Below are positions 15,890 to 41,716 of a stretch of 48,160 bases of DNA, piece after piece. Source of the stretch: Bacteroidota bacterium (GTDB lineage: Bacteria > Bacteroidota > Ignavibacteria > SZUA-365); contig JACZJN010000025.1 of assembly GCA_014860565.1 (NCBI GenBank), positions 1-48,160 on the forward strand, written 5' to 3'. The translations under genes were made by a program, and so were the position numbers. The notes beneath the pieces are model-generated. The model searched no databases. It saw only the letters and a program-made list of their open reading frames with translations, and was not told the DNA's origin. The first letter of the stretch is position 1, and each line of letters begins with the position of its first letter.

Positions 15890-18472
15890 ATGAGACGCAG
15901 TTCCCTCCACCTGCTGGTTGCACTCCTGTTTGTACCCGTATTCGCCCATGCTCAGCCCTCAAAGACGGCTGAAGGCATCTCTTTCGTGTACGCGAATGCC
16001 GAGGCCGCATCTGTTTCGCTTGTCGGCGATTTCAATGCCTGGTCGAAGGAAGCGCATCCGATGAGCAAGGCAGGCGACGGTACCTGGTCGGTGACCGTTT
16101 CTCTTCTTCCCGGGACCTACCAGTACGCGTACTCGGTCGATGGCAGCAGCATCGAAATCGATCCCAAGAATCCGCTGACCTTCGAATCCATCGACGGCCG
16201 GCGTTTGAATTCTCTTGTCTCGGTCTCTGATGACGGCAGCCTGCTCACCCAGGGATATCCCGTACGGATGAATCTTGATGACACGTACGAGAAAAAGGGC
16301 GGGACCGTGTATCTGAATATCGTTTTCCGTCACCACGTCCCCCTTTATTACAGCGCGGCTACCGATCGCATCGAGGCACCCTTCGTGCGTCAGCATGCGC
16401 TGCGCGATTATTTCCAGATGGCCGACGTGATCCAGCGCTATCCGAACGTCCATGCGACGGTGGTGCTCTCTCCGACCCTGCTCTGGCAGCTTCAGGAGAT
16501 TTATGTCAAGCGCCTCGAACCGTATATCAAGAAATACCGTGCAATGAATCCGTCGACAGCCGACATGGACGGCGCGCGTTTCCTTCGCGAAATGAAAGGC
16601 AAGACCGATCCGTGGATCGACGCCTGCCTCACGCCCGCCGAACAGTTGACCGAGAACGACAAGGCGTGGCTGTACAAGAACGAGTGGAACGCCTTCACCA
16701 TGAGCGAAGTGCGCCTGTACCGCTTCCCCGAACTGATGGAGCTGTACACCAAATGGCGCGACGCGAAGGGCAATCCGAGCTACACCGTCGATGAACTGCG
16801 CCTTCTGAAATTCTTCGCCATTTTCTCGAATTTCGACAGCGAATTCTACGAGCGGCGCGTGCCCCTGATTCAGACCGGTACCCGCATCTACCGCTCGCTC
16901 GACCTGCGCGACCTCGTGTCCTTCCGCAGCGACGGCAAATACTACCTCAAGCGCGCGATCACGGAAGACGATTGCCAGCGCATCGTCGCCTCGGCCTGGT
17001 ATATCATGGCCAGTATTCAGCCGGCATTCGACAAGACGAAATTCGACAGCCGCGCGATGATCGGACAGCTCGAGCTCGCCGCAACGTCGTATTCCGACGC
17101 CATCCTGCCGTTGTTGATCAACTCCGACGTCGCAAAGCAGGCGGATCCGGGCATCGGGCTGCCTGCAGCCTACATGCATCCCGAGGATGCCGATGCGCAG
17201 CTGAAGATGAGCCTCACCGCATATCAGAAATATTTCAACTACAAACCCACGGGCTACGTCGCTCCTTTCGGTGCGATCTCGCCCGCGGTGATTCCCCTGC
17301 TGAAGGATAATGGCTTCGACTGGTTCGTCTCCGACGAGCAGGTGCTGAAAAATTCTTCGCCGAAAAATCTGCCGAGCACGATTCCGTATTCGGTGACGGT
17401 CGACGGCAAGACGATGTACGGCGCGTTCTCGAATTCCCTGCTGACCAATCGCCTGAACTGGAGCTATCGCAATTACTACGCGGAAAACTCCGCCAACGAT
17501 TTCATCAGCAACGTGCTTGCGATGGCGCCGAATAATCCGAAGAAGCATGCGCTGGTGACCATCGTTATCGACGGCGATGACGCCTGGCAGTATTACCAGC
17601 GCGACATCGACGGCAAGGGCATCATGAACGGCATTTACCGCAAGCTGAATAAACTGTTCAAGACACGCGCGATCGTCTCGGTGACGCTCAGCGAATACGT
17701 GAAGGGCAACCGCATGCGCGGCATTCCCGCCAACAAGATCGAAGACTTCGATTCCATCAAGGAACTCGCCGCGGGCTCGCGCTTCAACGGCAAGTTCAAC
17801 ATGTGGATCGGCAGCCGCGATATGAACAAGGCATGGGATTACCTGCGGCAGGCGCGCGCCGATCTCGGCAAGGACGCCGCACCGGTCACCACCGTGGAAT
17901 ATCTTGACAACTTCACCAAGCAGCCGATGAACTTCTTCTACGCCGCGACCAGTCCCCACTGGATGCAGGAGTTCAATAGCAGTTCGTTGCAGGCGATGCC
18001 CCCGAAGCCGTTTGAACTGCAGTTCCGCAACCAGCTGGCCGACGCCTACGCGCTTGCCGGATTGGCGAAGCCGACCAAATTCGACGCCTTCATCAATCCT
18101 GCCGATTTCAATCCCGAGTGGAGCAAGCCACGCAAACGGACGACCGTGACCTTCCTCTGCAAGCTCGTGGATCGCGAAGCGATCACATCGGTATTCATTG
18201 CCGGCAACCGCAAGGAGCTGTCGAACATGGAGCCGAATACGATTCGCATGTGGGACAACGGCGAGAATGGCGACAAGAATTACGGCGACAACCAGTGGAC
18301 ACTGATCGTCGAGCTCGATGCTGGTGATCTGCTCTACAAGTACTGCAATTCCGGCGGTCAGGGCACCTGGGACGGCGCGGAAACCTTCCCCGATGAATGG
18401 CGCCGGGTCAAGATCGAAGGCGACAAGATGACGATCGAAGACATCTTCGCACGCATCAAGAACAAGTATTGA
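15890..18472 (+). CDS. Secreted GH57-like protein with CBM48 and CBM20-like modules (possible pseudoenzyme)
   Basis: An 860-aa protein. Signal peptide of 21 residues ends FAHA before QPS. An N-terminal CBM48/AMPK-type glycogen-binding domain (about 30-90: SVSLVGDFNAWS, GDGTWSVTVSLLPGTYQYAY) is followed by a GH57-type (beta/alpha)7 domain: IVFRHHVPLYY (145-154) at the family HxHQP position, ATSYSDAILPLL (398-409), GYVAPFGAIS (455-464) and VIDGDDAWQYY (559-569). A starch-binding CBM20-like domain closes the protein (about 745-845). In GH57 the GMWPSEGSVS motif carries the nucleophile Glu; here that position is Phe460, while the acid/base Asp region (Asp561) is kept. The protein may therefore bind rather than hydrolyse alpha-glucan. 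A terminator follows directly. Confidence 0.85.
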   Translation: MRRSSLHLLVALLFVPVFAHAQPSKTAEGISFVYANAEAASVSLVGDFNAWSKEAHPMSKAGDGTWSVTVSLLPGTYQYAYSVDGSSIEIDPKNPLTFESIDGRRLNSLVSVSDDGSLLTQGYPVRMNLDDTYEKKGGTVYLNIVFRHHVPLYYSAATDRIEAPFVRQHALRDYFQMADVIQRYPNVHATVVLSPTLLWQLQEIYVKRLEPYIKKYRAMNPSTADMDGARFLREMKGKTDPWIDACLTPAEQLTENDKAWLYKNEWNAFTMSEVRLYRFPELMELYTKWRDAKGNPSYTVDELRLLKFFAIFSNFDSEFYERRVPLIQTGTRIYRSLDLRDLVSFRSDGKYYLKRAITEDDCQRIVASAWYIMASIQPAFDKTKFDSRAMIGQLELAATSYSDAILPLLINSDVAKQADPGIGLPAAYMHPEDADAQLKMSLTAYQKYFNYKPTGYVAPFGAISPAVIPLLKDNGFDWFVSDEQVLKNSSPKNLPSTIPYSVTVDGKTMYGAFSNSLLTNRLNWSYRNYYAENSANDFISNVLAMAPNNPKKHALVTIVIDGDDAWQYYQRDIDGKGIMNGIYRKLNKLFKTRAIVSVTLSEYVKGNRMRGIPANKIEDFDSIKELAAGSRFNGKFNMWIGSRDMNKAWDYLRQARADLGKDAAPVTTVEYLDNFTKQPMNFFYAATSPHWMQEFNSSSLQAMPPKPFELQFRNQLADAYALAGLAKPTKFDAFINPADFNPEWSKPRKRTTVTFLCKLVDREAITSVFIAGNRKELSNMEPNTIRMWDNGENGDKNYGDNQWTLIVELDAGDLLYKYCNSGGQGTWDGAETFPDEWRRVKIEGDKMTIEDIFARIKNKY

Positions 18473-18489: not shown

Positions 18490-18528
18490 GAGGCTGTCTT
18501 CATTTCTGATGGCAGCCTCTTTTTTTTT
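18490..18528 (+). terminator. Rho-independent terminator after the GH57-like gene
   Basis: Stem GAGGCTG/CAGCCTC (18490-18496, 18513-18519), loop able to pair further, followed by nine T (18520-18528). It lies 17 nt after the stop at 18472 and just before the HD gene start. Confidence 0.85.
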
Positions 18529-18541
18529 CCCCGCGAGACGC

Positions 18542-19159
18542 ATGGACTCACCGCTTCCACTCTACAATCAGACGCATTTCACGCGCCAGGATCTGATTGA
18601 CGCGATTGCGACGAAACTTGATCCGGTCGAATTGACCACCGTGCTCGGCGCGTACGAGATGGCCAGCAGCGTGCACGAATATCAGCGGCGCAATGATTCT
18701 ACCCCCTATTTCTGGCATCTCTCGCGCGTTGCGCGCATCGTCATCGACGAACTGCACTACCTCAATGCCGATGTCATCAGCGCGGCATTGCTTCACGACG
18801 TGCTCGAGGATTCCGACATCATCACCGCCGAGGTCCTCAAGTACAATTTCAGCGCCTACATTTCCTACATCGTGGAGGTGCTGACGAAAAACATCCGTCT
18901 GCTGGGGATGCAGCGGGAGCAGGAAGACAGCGACTATGTCGAACGCCTGCGCTTCAGCAGCATCGACTGCAAAATCATTAAGTTTGCCGAACGCCTCGAT
19001 AATTACCGCTGTCTTGAATTCGGCGTCAAACGCAATCCTTTCGGCTACATCGAAGCCACCGAGCGTGACTATTACCCGATCGCACGGGAAGAGCAGAACG
19101 AAATGCTCGATCGCATCGTTGAGGAAATGGACCGAATCAAGCGCAAACTTTTCTCCTGA
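18542..19159 (+). CDS. SpoT-like HD hydrolase domain protein (possible small alarmone hydrolase)
   Basis: A 205-aa protein aligning with the hydrolase half of Rel/SpoT: FWHLSRVARIVIDELHYLNADVI with His59, ALLHDVLEDSDI (His85-Asp86, Glu89-Asp90) and KFAERLDNYRCL at the place of KLADRLHNMRTL. The metal-ligand Asp of the latter motif is Glu150 here, a conservative change. No synthetase domain is present, so a stand-alone (p)ppGpp hydrolase is a reasonable inference, with a generic HD phosphohydrolase as alternative. The start ATG 18542 lies just after the terminator; an upstream frame reads through the terminator and was rejected. dtd follows after 12 bp. Confidence 0.8.
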   Translation: MDSPLPLYNQTHFTRQDLIDAIATKLDPVELTTVLGAYEMASSVHEYQRRNDSTPYFWHLSRVARIVIDELHYLNADVISAALLHDVLEDSDIITAEVLKYNFSAYISYIVEVLTKNIRLLGMQREQEDSDYVERLRFSSIDCKIIKFAERLDNYRCLEFGVKRNPFGYIEATERDYYPIAREEQNEMLDRIVEEMDRIKRKLFS

Positions 19160-36558: not shown

Positions 36559-36928
36559 GGCGTATTTCGTCCCGCAACTGTGATAATGGTACGGCATAGT
36601 ATGCCCTTCGTCACGATTGATGCAAGGGAAAAACACGTGAGAAAAACATTGCGGACAATTATGATCATCATTGCATTTTGCTTCGAATACTTGTAGGTTT
36701 ATTTGTACTCAGTAAAAATTACCAGCTTTCCCCTTCATGGTACCGAGGCAATGGCCCGCGTGATCGAGGAGAGCAGATCAAGAAACGCACCTATCGACCG
36801 CTTCCATTCGAGACGAAACGGCAGGCTTATCATTGCCCCCGAATACGTTGATTCGAATGACCATGCGGTCGCAGTCGCTCTTTTCATTGCCATCGAAGTC
36901 ATTTTTCTCCATAAGCCGGAACACTGTC
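36559..36928. other. Divergent intergenic region upstream of the T9SS surface protein
   Basis: About 370 bp without a convincing gene. A TTG-N20-TAGGTTTA arrangement near 36669-36699 on the plus strand is a near match to TTG/TAnnTTTG and could drive the large surface-protein gene with a leader of more than 200 nt; the last base deviates from consensus. No hairpin or operator is evident. Confidence 0.35.
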
Positions 36929-39900
36929 ATGAAACGCTCGATACAGTTGATATTGGTATGGTGGGCATTGCTTTGCGTCGGACTCGTTTCCTATGCAGGC
37001 GCTCAGTCATATGTCGCGGAGGCCGGTTCCAACGGTTTCACACTCAAAAAGGTCGTCAGCGATACGGCTATCGCGACGGGACAGAATTTCTCCTACACGA
37101 TCTATTTCTCCATACCGGCAGGGGCAACGGGCGTCACCATCACCGACGCACTGCCTCCGGCTCTTACGTATCAGGCGATCAGCATCACCAGCGCGTGCGG
37201 TTCCCCCACGGTCGTCACCCCGACGGTTGGGACCTCGGGCACGGTATCGCTGACCTGGGGCACTGTCTCCTCGGGATGTTCCGGTTCATTTGTCGTCACC
37301 GTACAGTTCCCCAACGGAACCACATGCAACGGAGTCTCTGTACGCAACAACGTCTGCATGACGGCGATGCTCGGTGGAACGCCCATCGACTTCTGTACGG
37401 GATATGTCAACACGCGCGCGATCGCCGCGAATCCCTGGAACATCGGGAAATGGGTCATCGGCGCAGGCACACAGACCGGTCCCTGTCCGAACGTGACGGC
37501 GGACTCTGTCGTGAACTACCAGATCTGCGTCTACAAAAGTGTCGGCGTCACGGGACAGCTGAACATGGTGAATGCGGTCGTGTATGATACCCTGCCGGCC
37601 GGCGCGCAGTTGGTCAGTTCGACATGCGGCGCCACACAGGCGGGCAATGTCGTTACCTGGAACATCGGCACGCTCTCGGCCCTTCCGATGTATACCACGG
37701 TCTGCTGTACGTACTCGATTCTTTATCCGCGGACGATTTTCCCGACCGGCACGCAGCTGACCAACCAGGCCACGCTGCAGGGCACGCTCGGGAGTCCGAA
37801 CAATCCCTGCGGTCCTGCGCTGCATGTCAGTAATTCAACCTGCGTGGAAATCAAGACCATCACATCCGGTACACTCAGCAAGTACGTGTACACGAACGGT
37901 CAGCCCGGCTGCACGGGCAAGTACAGCATCTGGTTCTGCAACAACGGCAGTGTCCCGATCACGTCGATGACCATCACAGATACCATCCCCTTCCCGTTGA
38001 CGGGACTCTCCATCGGCGGTTCGTCCGCCTCGCTTTCGCCCTCGCTCGCGGGGAACATCGTGACCGCGACGCTCACTTCGCCGCTCGCGCCGAACGCGTG
38101 CGTGTACTTCGAGGTGAATTTCACCATTCCCAACTTTGCGACGGTCGGCAGCGTCGTCACCAACTGCGTGCACGCCACGATCGTCGGCACCGCGCCGCTG
38201 ACCGCATGCGCCAGTTTCACCGTTGCAGCACCCGCGCCGAAGCCCTGCGTCTGGAAAGAAGTCTGCAGCAAGCAGCCCTCGTACACTCCCGGAAGTATTT
38301 TCCGCTACCGCCTGCGTGTGCAGAACATCGGCGGATTGCCCATCACGGGCGCGACGATTACGGATGTCCTCAATCCCAACCTGCAGTATGTTGGAAGTCC
38401 CTCCTACTATACCGCCGCGGCATGGAACGTGCCCTGCCAGACGACTTCCAACTGGACAGGAGTCACTCTATCCCAGGTCGGCAATACGCTGACGTTTACT
38501 CTGCCCAGCATCCCGGCCACGTGTCAGAATACGTTCTACGGCAACTGCGGGATGTACGGGACATTCGGCGTCCCCTACTACTTCATCGAGTTCGATGTGA
38601 AGGTCGCCGATACGACGGCTCTCGGAAACATTCCGAACAGCTTCACGATAGGAGGAGGCAATCTATCGGGAACGACACCGTCGAATATCGATTACGTGAA
38701 CGTCGTCGGCACCACGGGATTCTTCCTCGACAAGGGCGTCGCGACGGATACTACGAGTTGGGCGTCGACGCTGAGCACCACGGCGGGCTCCAATGTGAAT
38801 TACCGGCTGCGTCTGACCGTCGCACCCGGAAGCGTTGGCCTCCGTCATGTGACGTTTGCCGACCTGCTGCCTCGTGACAATCCACCCAACGACAATCTCA
38901 TTCTCGGGCCCTGCGGTCCCCGCGGCAGCGCGTTCAACCTTGCGTTCGCATCACCGATCACTTCGGTGCCGAGCGCTGTCGACTATAAAAACGGTACCAG
39001 TTTCTCGAACGTAAATATCTTCACTCCGGCCGGGGCTCCCGCCCCGATGTTCACCAGTGGCTGCGGTACGATGGGCAGTTGGGCAGCGGGCATCGTCCCG
39101 CTCGACCGCAACCTCGGCTGGTATTTCGGATCGGCTCCGCTGGGCGCCGGCAACACGGCGACAACCATGTTCACCGCCACTGTCGCACCCGGCGCGCAGG
39201 ACAATACGACGGCCTGCAACACCTTTGCGGCAAACGGGGCGGTGCGGCATCTGATCAACAGTGCCGTCTACACCGACCAGGCGACGGGTAATCTCGAATC
39301 GGGTACGGCCTGCGTCACGGTGGTCAAGGATACGACCGGTCAGACAGAGTGCTTTTCCGTGCAGCCGAAATCCATCATCAGCACCGGTGTCGATCCGAAA
39401 GGAAACTGCACATACGACATCGTCGTGACGATAACGAATCCGGGTCCGGCCACGACGGGATATTTCGAATCGTTCTCCGGCACCGTCACGCCATCGCCAC
39501 TTGCGATTCCCACCGGCACGACGACGGATACACTGACCTTCATTGATACCCCACCAACCGATACCTTCGTCTGCATTCGCTACGGAATCTTCGATGCCAC
39601 GGGTGTCCGTACGCTCTGCGACAGTCTCTGCATCGACCTGCCTCCGTGTGGCGGTTCGGATCCCTGCGATTCGCTCTCCGTCAAGGTGTCGGCGGTAAGT
39701 TCGACAGGCGTGGGAGCGACCGGCGACTGCAACTATACCGTGGTGCTCAACATCACGAACTCGACGGCATCCCCGCTCCCGGTCTGGTTTGATTCGTTCG
39801 CGGGCACGGTGGCGCCGAGCGGACTGACGCTCCCGGTTGGACCCAGCGTCCAGACGCTCACATTCACGGATACGCCTCCGACGAACAGCTTCGTGTGCAT

Positions 39901-41716
39901 CCGTTACGGGCTCAGCATCCAGGGCGCCCGCGTCGTCTGCGACAGTGTCTGTTTCGACCTTCCACCGTGCGGCGAAACCAGCCTCTGCGATTCCGTGTCC
40001 GCGCAGGTTAAGTCCGTCACATCAACCGGCGTGGATGCGGTCGGTGACTGCACATACTCCGTGGTTCTTTCGTTCACGAATGCCGCGGCCTCCCCGATTC
40101 CGATGTGGTTCGAATCGTATCAGGGCACCGTCGCCTTGCCGATTCTGACAATCCCTGTTGGAGCAAGCACGCAAACGCTGACCTTTACCGACACGCCGCC
40201 GACGAATACGTTCGTGTGCATCCGCTACGGATTCTTCCAGGGACCGCAGCCGGTCAAACGGGTACTTTGCGACAGCGTATGCTTCGACATCGAACCGTGC
40301 GGCGATACAAAGCCCTGCGATTCACTTCTGAAGGCAGAGCTTGATACGGTGTGCTGCGAGTACTCCGCAACCATCGTCAACGGTCCGGGCACTCCGATCA
40401 CCTCGATATCGTACTACGTCACCGGTGGCACCGTGGCCAACTTTACGACCATGCCCTGTCCGCCTGTCACACCCGCACCGGTCGGAAGCACGTCAGGCGT
40501 TCTCACCTACAGTCCGCCATGCGCCGGAAACATCCTCTTCAATTTCCAGGGCACTCCGACCACACCATCGAACACCATCTTCGTCACGCTGGTCGTGCAT
40601 CACGGAAAGGACTCCTGCACGATCCGCTTCCAGTACACCTGCGACCGTACGCCGCTCCAGCACTGTGACGACATCAAGGTCAAGCCGTACGTCACTGCCG
40701 GACTCGCCCTGTCTGGACGTGCGTTCACCATCCTGAACACCAAGGTACCGGCATCCCCCATCACCTACGTAAGCGTTACCCCGATCCCAACACCGTGCAG
40801 CGTAGTGGGAGGCGGACTGCAGGTCGACTACGTCGCCACGAGTTGGCCCTCGCCATACACGCGCATTCCGACTACCGGATTCATCAGTGCGAACTCGGCG
40901 GTCAGCTTCAATCTCGCGATCAACTACTCGTGCAACTGGGCAGGCAACGTACAGATCGTCGTGCATCATGCCGACGGCGACAGCTGCCTGTACACGTATG
41001 GTCCGTGGAAAGCGCAGCTCGGCACCGGTACGGGTGTCGTGCTCACCGATCCAATCAAGGGCCGCGTATTCGCAAAGAAGCTGCGCCTGCAGAATCCTTC
41101 CGGCAGCGAGCCAGTGAAGTGGCTTTCGGTCAGCGTTGAATCGCAGTCCGACGTCATCATCGCAGGTTCGGGCCGCCACTGGGAAGGTGCGACCCTATCT
41201 TCTGGCTACGAATCCCTCGAGGGCTACGACCAGGGTGCGACGGATGCGTTGTTCACGTTTGAACGGTTGATCCCGGGAGGCGGCATCAGCGGCGACTTCA
41301 ACCTGGTGGTCGCACGTGATTCGGCGGAGAGCGGAACACCGGTCATACGCTGGACCACCTACGACGAAGACGGCAATGCTCTCGCCACGGATACGGTCGG
41401 CATTTCCGGTACGGTCCTCACGATTCGCGGCAGCGGCGGTTCGTCACTCGCCGGTGACTTCGAGTTGCTGCAGTCCTTCCCGAATCCCGCATCGCATTCC
41501 GCCACCATCAATTATGCGATGAAGAAAGCGATGACCGTGCAGCTTGAGCTGTACAATCCGATCGGCGAACGCGTCGGGGAGGTAGAGTCCGGCTTGATCA
41601 ACGCCGGCCTGCACTCCGCGCATTTCGACATCTCGGGACTGGCACCCGGGACATACTTCCTGCGGCTCTCCGGAGCGTCCGGCTCCGTCACGAAGCCGCT
41701 GGTCATCGCCCGATAG
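36929..41716 (+). CDS. Giant secreted surface protein with DUF11-like domains and T9SS type A sorting domain
   Basis: A 1595-aa protein. Signal peptide (MKRSIQLILVWWALLCVG…AGAQ) is followed by about five Ig-like/DUF11-type domains at roughly 36, 168, 310, 438 and 598, each with phrases such as VTITDALPPALTYQ, MTITDTIPFPLTGL and ATITDVLNPNLQYVG. Next come three ~108-aa repeats (about 807, 912, 1020) with CDS…VKSV, STGVD and DTPPTNTFVCIRYG, a fourth partial copy near 1129, and many Cys. The C-terminal ~80 residues (FELLQSFPNPASHSATINY … LAPGTYFLRLSG … KPLVIAR) are a T9SS type A sorting domain, so the protein is exported across the outer membrane and cell-surface-attached or released. Function is probably adhesive or structural. 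ATG 36929 places the signal peptide at the start. Confidence 0.9.
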   Translation: MKRSIQLILVWWALLCVGLVSYAGAQSYVAEAGSNGFTLKKVVSDTAIATGQNFSYTIYFSIPAGATGVTITDALPPALTYQAISITSACGSPTVVTPTVGTSGTVSLTWGTVSSGCSGSFVVTVQFPNGTTCNGVSVRNNVCMTAMLGGTPIDFCTGYVNTRAIAANPWNIGKWVIGAGTQTGPCPNVTADSVVNYQICVYKSVGVTGQLNMVNAVVYDTLPAGAQLVSSTCGATQAGNVVTWNIGTLSALPMYTTVCCTYSILYPRTIFPTGTQLTNQATLQGTLGSPNNPCGPALHVSNSTCVEIKTITSGTLSKYVYTNGQPGCTGKYSIWFCNNGSVPITSMTITDTIPFPLTGLSIGGSSASLSPSLAGNIVTATLTSPLAPNACVYFEVNFTIPNFATVGSVVTNCVHATIVGTAPLTACASFTVAAPAPKPCVWKEVCSKQPSYTPGSIFRYRLRVQNIGGLPITGATITDVLNPNLQYVGSPSYYTAAAWNVPCQTTSNWTGVTLSQVGNTLTFTLPSIPATCQNTFYGNCGMYGTFGVPYYFIEFDVKVADTTALGNIPNSFTIGGGNLSGTTPSNIDYVNVVGTTGFFLDKGVATDTTSWASTLSTTAGSNVNYRLRLTVAPGSVGLRHVTFADLLPRDNPPNDNLILGPCGPRGSAFNLAFASPITSVPSAVDYKNGTSFSNVNIFTPAGAPAPMFTSGCGTMGSWAAGIVPLDRNLGWYFGSAPLGAGNTATTMFTATVAPGAQDNTTACNTFAANGAVRHLINSAVYTDQATGNLESGTACVTVVKDTTGQTECFSVQPKSIISTGVDPKGNCTYDIVVTITNPGPATTGYFESFSGTVTPSPLAIPTGTTTDTLTFIDTPPTDTFVCIRYGIFDATGVRTLCDSLCIDLPPCGGSDPCDSLSVKVSAVSSTGVGATGDCNYTVVLNITNSTASPLPVWFDSFAGTVAPSGLTLPVGPSVQTLTFTDTPPTNSFVCIRYGLSIQGARVVCDSVCFDLPPCGETSLCDSVSAQVKSVTSTGVDAVGDCTYSVVLSFTNAAASPIPMWFESYQGTVALPILTIPVGASTQTLTFTDTPPTNTFVCIRYGFFQGPQPVKRVLCDSVCFDIEPCGDTKPCDSLLKAELDTVCCEYSATIVNGPGTPITSISYYVTGGTVANFTTMPCPPVTPAPVGSTSGVLTYSPPCAGNILFNFQGTPTTPSNTIFVTLVVHHGKDSCTIRFQYTCDRTPLQHCDDIKVKPYVTAGLALSGRAFTILNTKVPASPITYVSVTPIPTPCSVVGGGLQVDYVATSWPSPYTRIPTTGFISANSAVSFNLAINYSCNWAGNVQIVVHHADGDSCLYTYGPWKAQLGTGTGVVLTDPIKGRVFAKKLRLQNPSGSEPVKWLSVSVESQSDVIIAGSGRHWEGATLSSGYESLEGYDQGATDALFTFERLIPGGGISGDFNLVVARDSAESGTPVIRWTTYDEDGNALATDTVGISGTVLTIRGSGGSSLAGDFELLQSFPNPASHSATINYAMKKAMTVQLELYNPIGERVGEVESGLINAGLHSAHFDISGLAPGTYFLRLSGASGSVTKPLVIAR
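39349..40350 (+). repeat. Three in-frame ~324-nt repeats within the surface protein gene
   Basis: Segments starting near 39349, 39664 and 39988 encode repeated blocks containing STGVD/STGVG, a GTV…P middle, and DTPPT..FVCIRYG ends; a partial fourth starts near 40316. Spacing of the DTPPT block is about 325 and 321 nt. The copies differ clearly in DNA sequence, so they are not recent duplications. Confidence 0.8.

Follow-up and report, generated by a model that had tools for sequence, protein, structure and literature searches.

The window, that is, the whole 48,160-nucleotide stretch of DNA analysed here (from a Bacteroidota bacterium of the class Ignavibacteria, order SZUA-365), carries a gene for a secreted protein resembling glycoside hydrolases of family GH57, in which the catalytic nucleophile is missing. 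The question raised by this locus is what such a protein was derived from, and what it might do. A preliminary description had proposed either a scaffold that binds alpha-glucans or an enzyme with a relocated nucleophile; here, both proposals are weighed against orthologs, catalytic relatives and the genomic setting of the gene.

Domain layout, distribution and descent

The features of the locus are collected in Table 1. The protein matches the Pfam Glyco_hydro_57 profile (PF03065) with 100.8 bits over residues 144–612, compared with a cutoff of 21.2, and thus belongs to the GH57 family by profile, while the CBM_48 match (42.5 bits, residues 26–87) is also above the Pfam cutoff. The Q22-P23 pair following the signal peptide is invariant across 12 aligned sequences from the clade and its catalytic relatives. 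Alignment by phmmer to solved GH57 structures (best E-value 4e-23) placed APFGAIS on PPEASVS, with F460 in the column of the nucleophile Glu; IDGDDAW fell on LDGEN, the acid/base motif, and retains Asp561. The residue assignments made initially, namely replacement of the nucleophile by Phe460 and retention of the acid/base region, were therefore correct. AlphaFold models, built from 7 sequences, were of very low confidence (pLDDT of 38 for the full-length protein and 36 for the GH57 domain). An antisense ORF of 666 aa (15959–17959, minus strand) overlaps the gene and is taken to be a side effect of base composition.

Table 1. Features of the pseudo-GH57 locus (window coordinates; res, residues).
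Feature	Coordinates	Strand	Remarks
Secreted GH57 pseudo-glucanase gene	15890..18472	+	ORF, 860 aa, ATG start; order-wide single-copy orthologs; purifying selection
Signal peptide, type I, res 1–21	15890..15952	+	Cleavage between AHA and QP; from sequence
CBM48 module, res 26–87	15965..16150	+	Pfam match; Ala/Gly replaces Lys80 in 16/16, W51 retained
GH57 (beta/alpha)7-type domain, res 144–612	16319..17725	+	Pfam and alignment to PDB 9ii1/8zyi
CSR-1, degenerate, RHHVP, res 147–151	16328..16342	+	Catalytic relatives have HQHQP; second His retained
CSR-2, degenerate, Asp403-Ala404	17096..17101	+	His-Pro in 87/87 relatives
CSR-3, degenerate, GYVAPFGAIS, res 455–464	17252..17281	+	Phe460 codon (17267–17269) at nucleophile position
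CSR-4, DGDDAW, res 561–566	17570..17587	+	Acid/base Asp561 retained; Asp in place of Glu563 and of Asn564
C-terminal domain, res 748–856	18131..18457	+	Homologous to CBM20 of catalytic relatives; K817 and W827 retained, Met780 in place of the site-1 Trp
HD_4 gene, RelA/SpoT-hydrolase-like	18509..19159	+	Downstream neighbour; adjoins GH57-like gene across the order

In whole-genome searches, each of the 16 genomes of the order yielded exactly one full-length ortholog, with 46–94% identity to the window protein. The class sample comprised 391 genomes, 93 of which held a match at E ≤ 1e-60, including the 16 from the order; the genomes are assemblies, several of them draft. No members were found outside the class among 395 sampled genomes across the phylum, nor were GH57 relatives found on viral contigs. 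Presence of the trait in 16 genomes rules out a one-off sequencing error as its cause, and compensation by another GH57 protein is ruled out for the window genome (G000), in which a second one was not found. The only second GH57 protein in the order (L039, G012:C107:110-1243) is catalytically complete and contig-truncated, and falls outside the clade on a deep branch of its own.

In all, 103 proteins were aligned, 8 of which were more distant members of GH57, and a maximum likelihood tree (quick search) was built with the conserved catalytic columns omitted. The 16 orthologs formed one clade (SH-aLRT 100) on a long stem branch (0.99 changes per column), the exact place of which among the deepest branches of the tree is ambiguous. 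Since the catalytic machinery is complete in all other members of the group in which the clade is nested, and in the outgroups, catalysis has been lost rather than being ancestrally absent. Estimates of dN/dS for the whole protein, with all domains taken together, were about 0.04–0.20 (Nei-Gojobori, nine pairs, with synonymous sites partly saturated in the wider pairs), and values as low as these indicate that the gene has been retained by strong purifying selection.

Losses in the catalytic cleft

The nucleophile column contains Glu in 87/87 relatives and Tyr (10), Phe (3) or Gly (3) in the 16 orthologs. An alignment of close homologues had been suggested as a check on the conservation of Phe at this position; the absence of Glu proved to be general (16/16), whereas Phe itself is confined to three sequences. 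Among the other hallmarks of active GH57 enzymes, the acid/base Asp of CSR-4 is present, residue 561 being Asp in 15 members of the clade and Glu in one (FEGDEAW, ortholog L006 of G010), whereas HxHQP of CSR-1, which had rightly been called degenerate, HP of CSR-2 and an intact CSR-5 have given way to RHHVP, SDAIL and GSRFN, respectively. Indeed, degeneration is much wider than was first stated, with some 20 normally invariant cleft positions changed, a changed position being one that is at least 93% constant in the relatives yet altered in the clade. Positions altered in 16/16 orthologs include H147 (R/K), W165 (F), N192 (V/A), H403 (D/E), P404 (A), W457 (V/I), E460, R514, D520, W631 (R/K), W693 and W694, and W146 is replaced by Phe in 13/16. 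Five cleft Trp residues are thereby lost throughout the clade, as are His147, His403, Arg514 and Asp520, and neither the five CSRs nor the two sugar-binding modules have escaped change. Since the retaining mechanism of GH57 enzymes needs both the Glu and the sugar contacts, and both are gone, hydrolysis of alpha-glucans by the protein is unlikely, as judged from its sequence.

Other residues of the old active site persist or have been exchanged in a uniform manner. Asp561 and His149 remain, the latter invariant; Glu563 is now Asp; and His403 and Asn564, which are His and Asn in 87/87 relatives, have become Asp or Glu in 16/16 orthologs. The slowly evolving positions among those that switched are 400, 404, 165 and 563, and the nucleophile position is fast evolving within the clade (80th percentile). 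The changed positions as a set had a mean rate of 0.80, compared with 0.97 for random domain positions, and random sets were as low in 9% of cases; the set does not evolve significantly more slowly than the domain, so that a constrained new acidic pocket is put forward here as a suggestion.

Binding modules and genomic setting

Both flanking modules had been described as intact. In AMPK, the glucan-contact residues of CBM48 are W100, K126, W133 and N150 (PMC4032982), K126 has been reported as necessary for glycogen binding (PMC4032982, PMC2642990), and its mutation reduces binding (PMC2642990). In the clade, the residue at position 80, which corresponds to K126, is Ala or Gly in 16/16 orthologs, and there is no Trp at residues 86–87, beside the place expected for W133. 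The contacts that are kept are W51 (16/16) and N107 (13/16). The CBM48 module therefore stands as regards its profile match and W51, but not as regards the contact Lys.

The description of the C-terminal domain as an intact CBM20-like module cannot be upheld. The homologous domain of a catalytic relative is called CBM_20 by Pfam (44.7 bits), while the window protein gave no Pfam CBM20 match at E ≤ 1 and is not counted as a CBM20 member. Additionally, the first Trp of canonical site 1 (position 780) is Met, Leu or Lys in 16/16 orthologs, with K817 and W827 invariant. The roles of these Trp, Lys and Trp positions are presumed to be those of W543, K578 and W590 in A. niger glucoamylase.

The gene lies in a neighbourhood conserved in the order, comprising ftsH, a phosphoribosyltransferase gene, tilS, a hypothetical gene, the GH57-like gene, the HD_4 gene, dtd and then a metalloenzyme-family gene. 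The HD_4 protein is small and resembles only the hydrolase part of RelA/SpoT; its gene is directly downstream in every locus checked, in the same direction and at a distance of ~60–195 bp in the nine loci measured, and co-transcription of the pair is possible. Catalytic relatives, by comparison, are typically encoded among GH13 enzymes, T9SS-tailed proteins and MalE/MalF/MalG. In the window genome the maltodextrin transporter genes, for a MalE-MalF fusion and MalG, lie at a separate locus with no GH57 gene beside them. The fusion is a single ORF of 779 aa (L149:10348-12687, on G000:C136), followed by MalG; long fused MalE-MalF-like ORFs are also present in G007 and G005, and the genes are separate in class relatives. 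Within the window, positions 36833–41716 encode a protein of 1627 aa that contains DUF11 repeats and bears a T9SS sorting tail; it was considered as a neighbour shared with the catalytic loci and rejected, as only the sorting tail matched.

These observations bear on the proposal that the dead barrel, together with the CBM48 and CBM20 modules, retains starch or glycogen on behalf of other enzymes. By homology, the folds of both modules are preserved, the genome encodes several GH13 enzymes and a glycogen synthase, and the invariant W51, K817 and W827 make weak residual binding possible. However, loss in 16/16 orthologs of the CSR-1 and CSR-2 His, the cleft Arg and Asp, five Trp, the CBM48 Lys and the CBM20 Trp argues against an intact alpha-glucan-binding scaffold, as do the lowered glycogen binding of AMPK mutated at K126 (PMC2642990) and the position of the gene away from those for alpha-glucan metabolism. 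The proposal is considered to be weakened accordingly, and improbable.

Possible function and comparison with known GH57 proteins

The observations are best explained, with a probability of roughly 0.68, by exaptation of a secreted alpha-glucanase, which would have become an envelope protein devoid of catalysis, its acidic pocket remodelled to suit another ligand or partner; the retained protein very probably has a new role. The protein would have descended vertically from a secreted alpha-glucanase with CBM48-GH57-CBM20 architecture that belonged to a maltodextrin system. In the ancestor of the order, both diagnostic histidines and the Glu nucleophile, which make up the retaining machinery, would have disappeared, along with the aromatic and charged residues that contact sugar in the cleft and with key positions in each binding module. 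The gene would have come to lie in a cluster of housekeeping genes, and purifying selection would afterwards have maintained it in the core genome as a single copy. The protein, which is probably periplasmic, would not hydrolyse alpha-glucans and would most likely act by binding, with a scaffold provided by the barrel, which is intact, and by the beta-sandwich modules on either side of it. The former cleft would form an acidic pocket from Asp561, Asp563, Asp/Glu564 and Asp/Glu403, with His149 and Arg/Lys147, and this putative binding site may accept a different ligand or a protein partner in the cell envelope. Against exaptation as a binding protein, Asp561 is conserved (with one Glu), which pure scaffolding does not require; the retained W51 of CBM48, and K817 and W827 of the C-terminal domain, may confer some affinity for glucan; and the new fixed carboxylates could restore some chemistry.

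The last of these points could feasibly be extended to an enzyme that is still active because its catalytic residues have moved or its mechanism has changed (Asp561 acting with Asp403 or Asp564, for instance), directed at a different glycan, or to a metal-dependent relative within the NodB/GH38 superfamily. Such activity would be consistent with Asp or Glu at position 561 in 16/16 orthologs, with the fixed exchanges at 403 and 564 and with the invariant His149, but rapid evolution of the original nucleophile position within the clade and the occurrence of Glu at 561 in one member render it distinctly unlikely. A more specific conjecture, and likewise a doubtful one, is that in all members of the order the barrel has been rebuilt so that Asp/Glu403, Asp561, Asp563, Asp/Glu564 and His149 constitute a new active or metal-binding acidic centre for an envelope ligand other than alpha-glucan; if true, a new acidic centre would have been derived from a starch-degrading ancestor, catalytic relatives of which survive in sister lineages. 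Decay of a functionless gene, to which the many lost catalytic residues and the long stem branch might point, is scarcely credible in view of full-length ORFs in 16/16 genomes, the low dN/dS and the conserved neighbourhood, and pseudogene status is contradicted by selection and the intact ORFs.

A dead GH57 protein is not new in kind, since ‘like’ proteins without catalytic residues are already known, comprising the AAMY-like, 4AGT-like, APU-CMD-like and GBE-like groups (Janecek & Blesak 2011; PMC6037648). The clade shares with these the GH57 barrel, replacement of one or both catalytic residues and clustering next to active enzymes. The ‘like’ groups were compared by description, and are sorted by CSR features without function; in the clade, by contrast, changes affect every one of the five CSRs as well as both sugar modules, the secreted protein carries CBM48 and CBM20-type domains, and it is known which relatives are catalytic and in what operon context they lie. 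Those relatives, the catalytic CBM48-GH57-CBM20 proteins of the class (e.g. L130:8398-11016 and L018–L021), have the same architecture, a signal peptide and ~34–39% full-length identity, but differ in their full catalytic machinery, Trp-rich cleft and location in maltodextrin operons with GH13 and MalE/F/G. The best match among solved structures is a 477-aa GH57 protein (PDB 8zyi, 9ii1, 9jlq series; E-value of 4e-23 with a single sequence and 5e-55 with a profile), which, unlike the clade, keeps HMHQP, YHPLIP, PPEASV, LDGEN and TWFD and has no CBM48. Neither a GH57 pseudoenzyme nor GH57 in Ignavibacteria was found in the open-access literature that was searched, and what is new with respect to that literature is the order-wide, secreted and modular form, together with the identification of its catalytic relatives, the shift in genomic setting and the concurrent losses in the binding modules. 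The clade appears to represent a clean natural conversion of enzyme to non-enzyme: the architecture is unchanged, sister lineages contain catalytic relatives, the orthologs form one supported clade on the tree, and the positions that changed and became fixed can be listed. A GH57 or CBM48 annotation in such genomes does not equate to starch degradation, and the protein offers a defined system in which to study the function of pseudo-glycosidases that have been retained.
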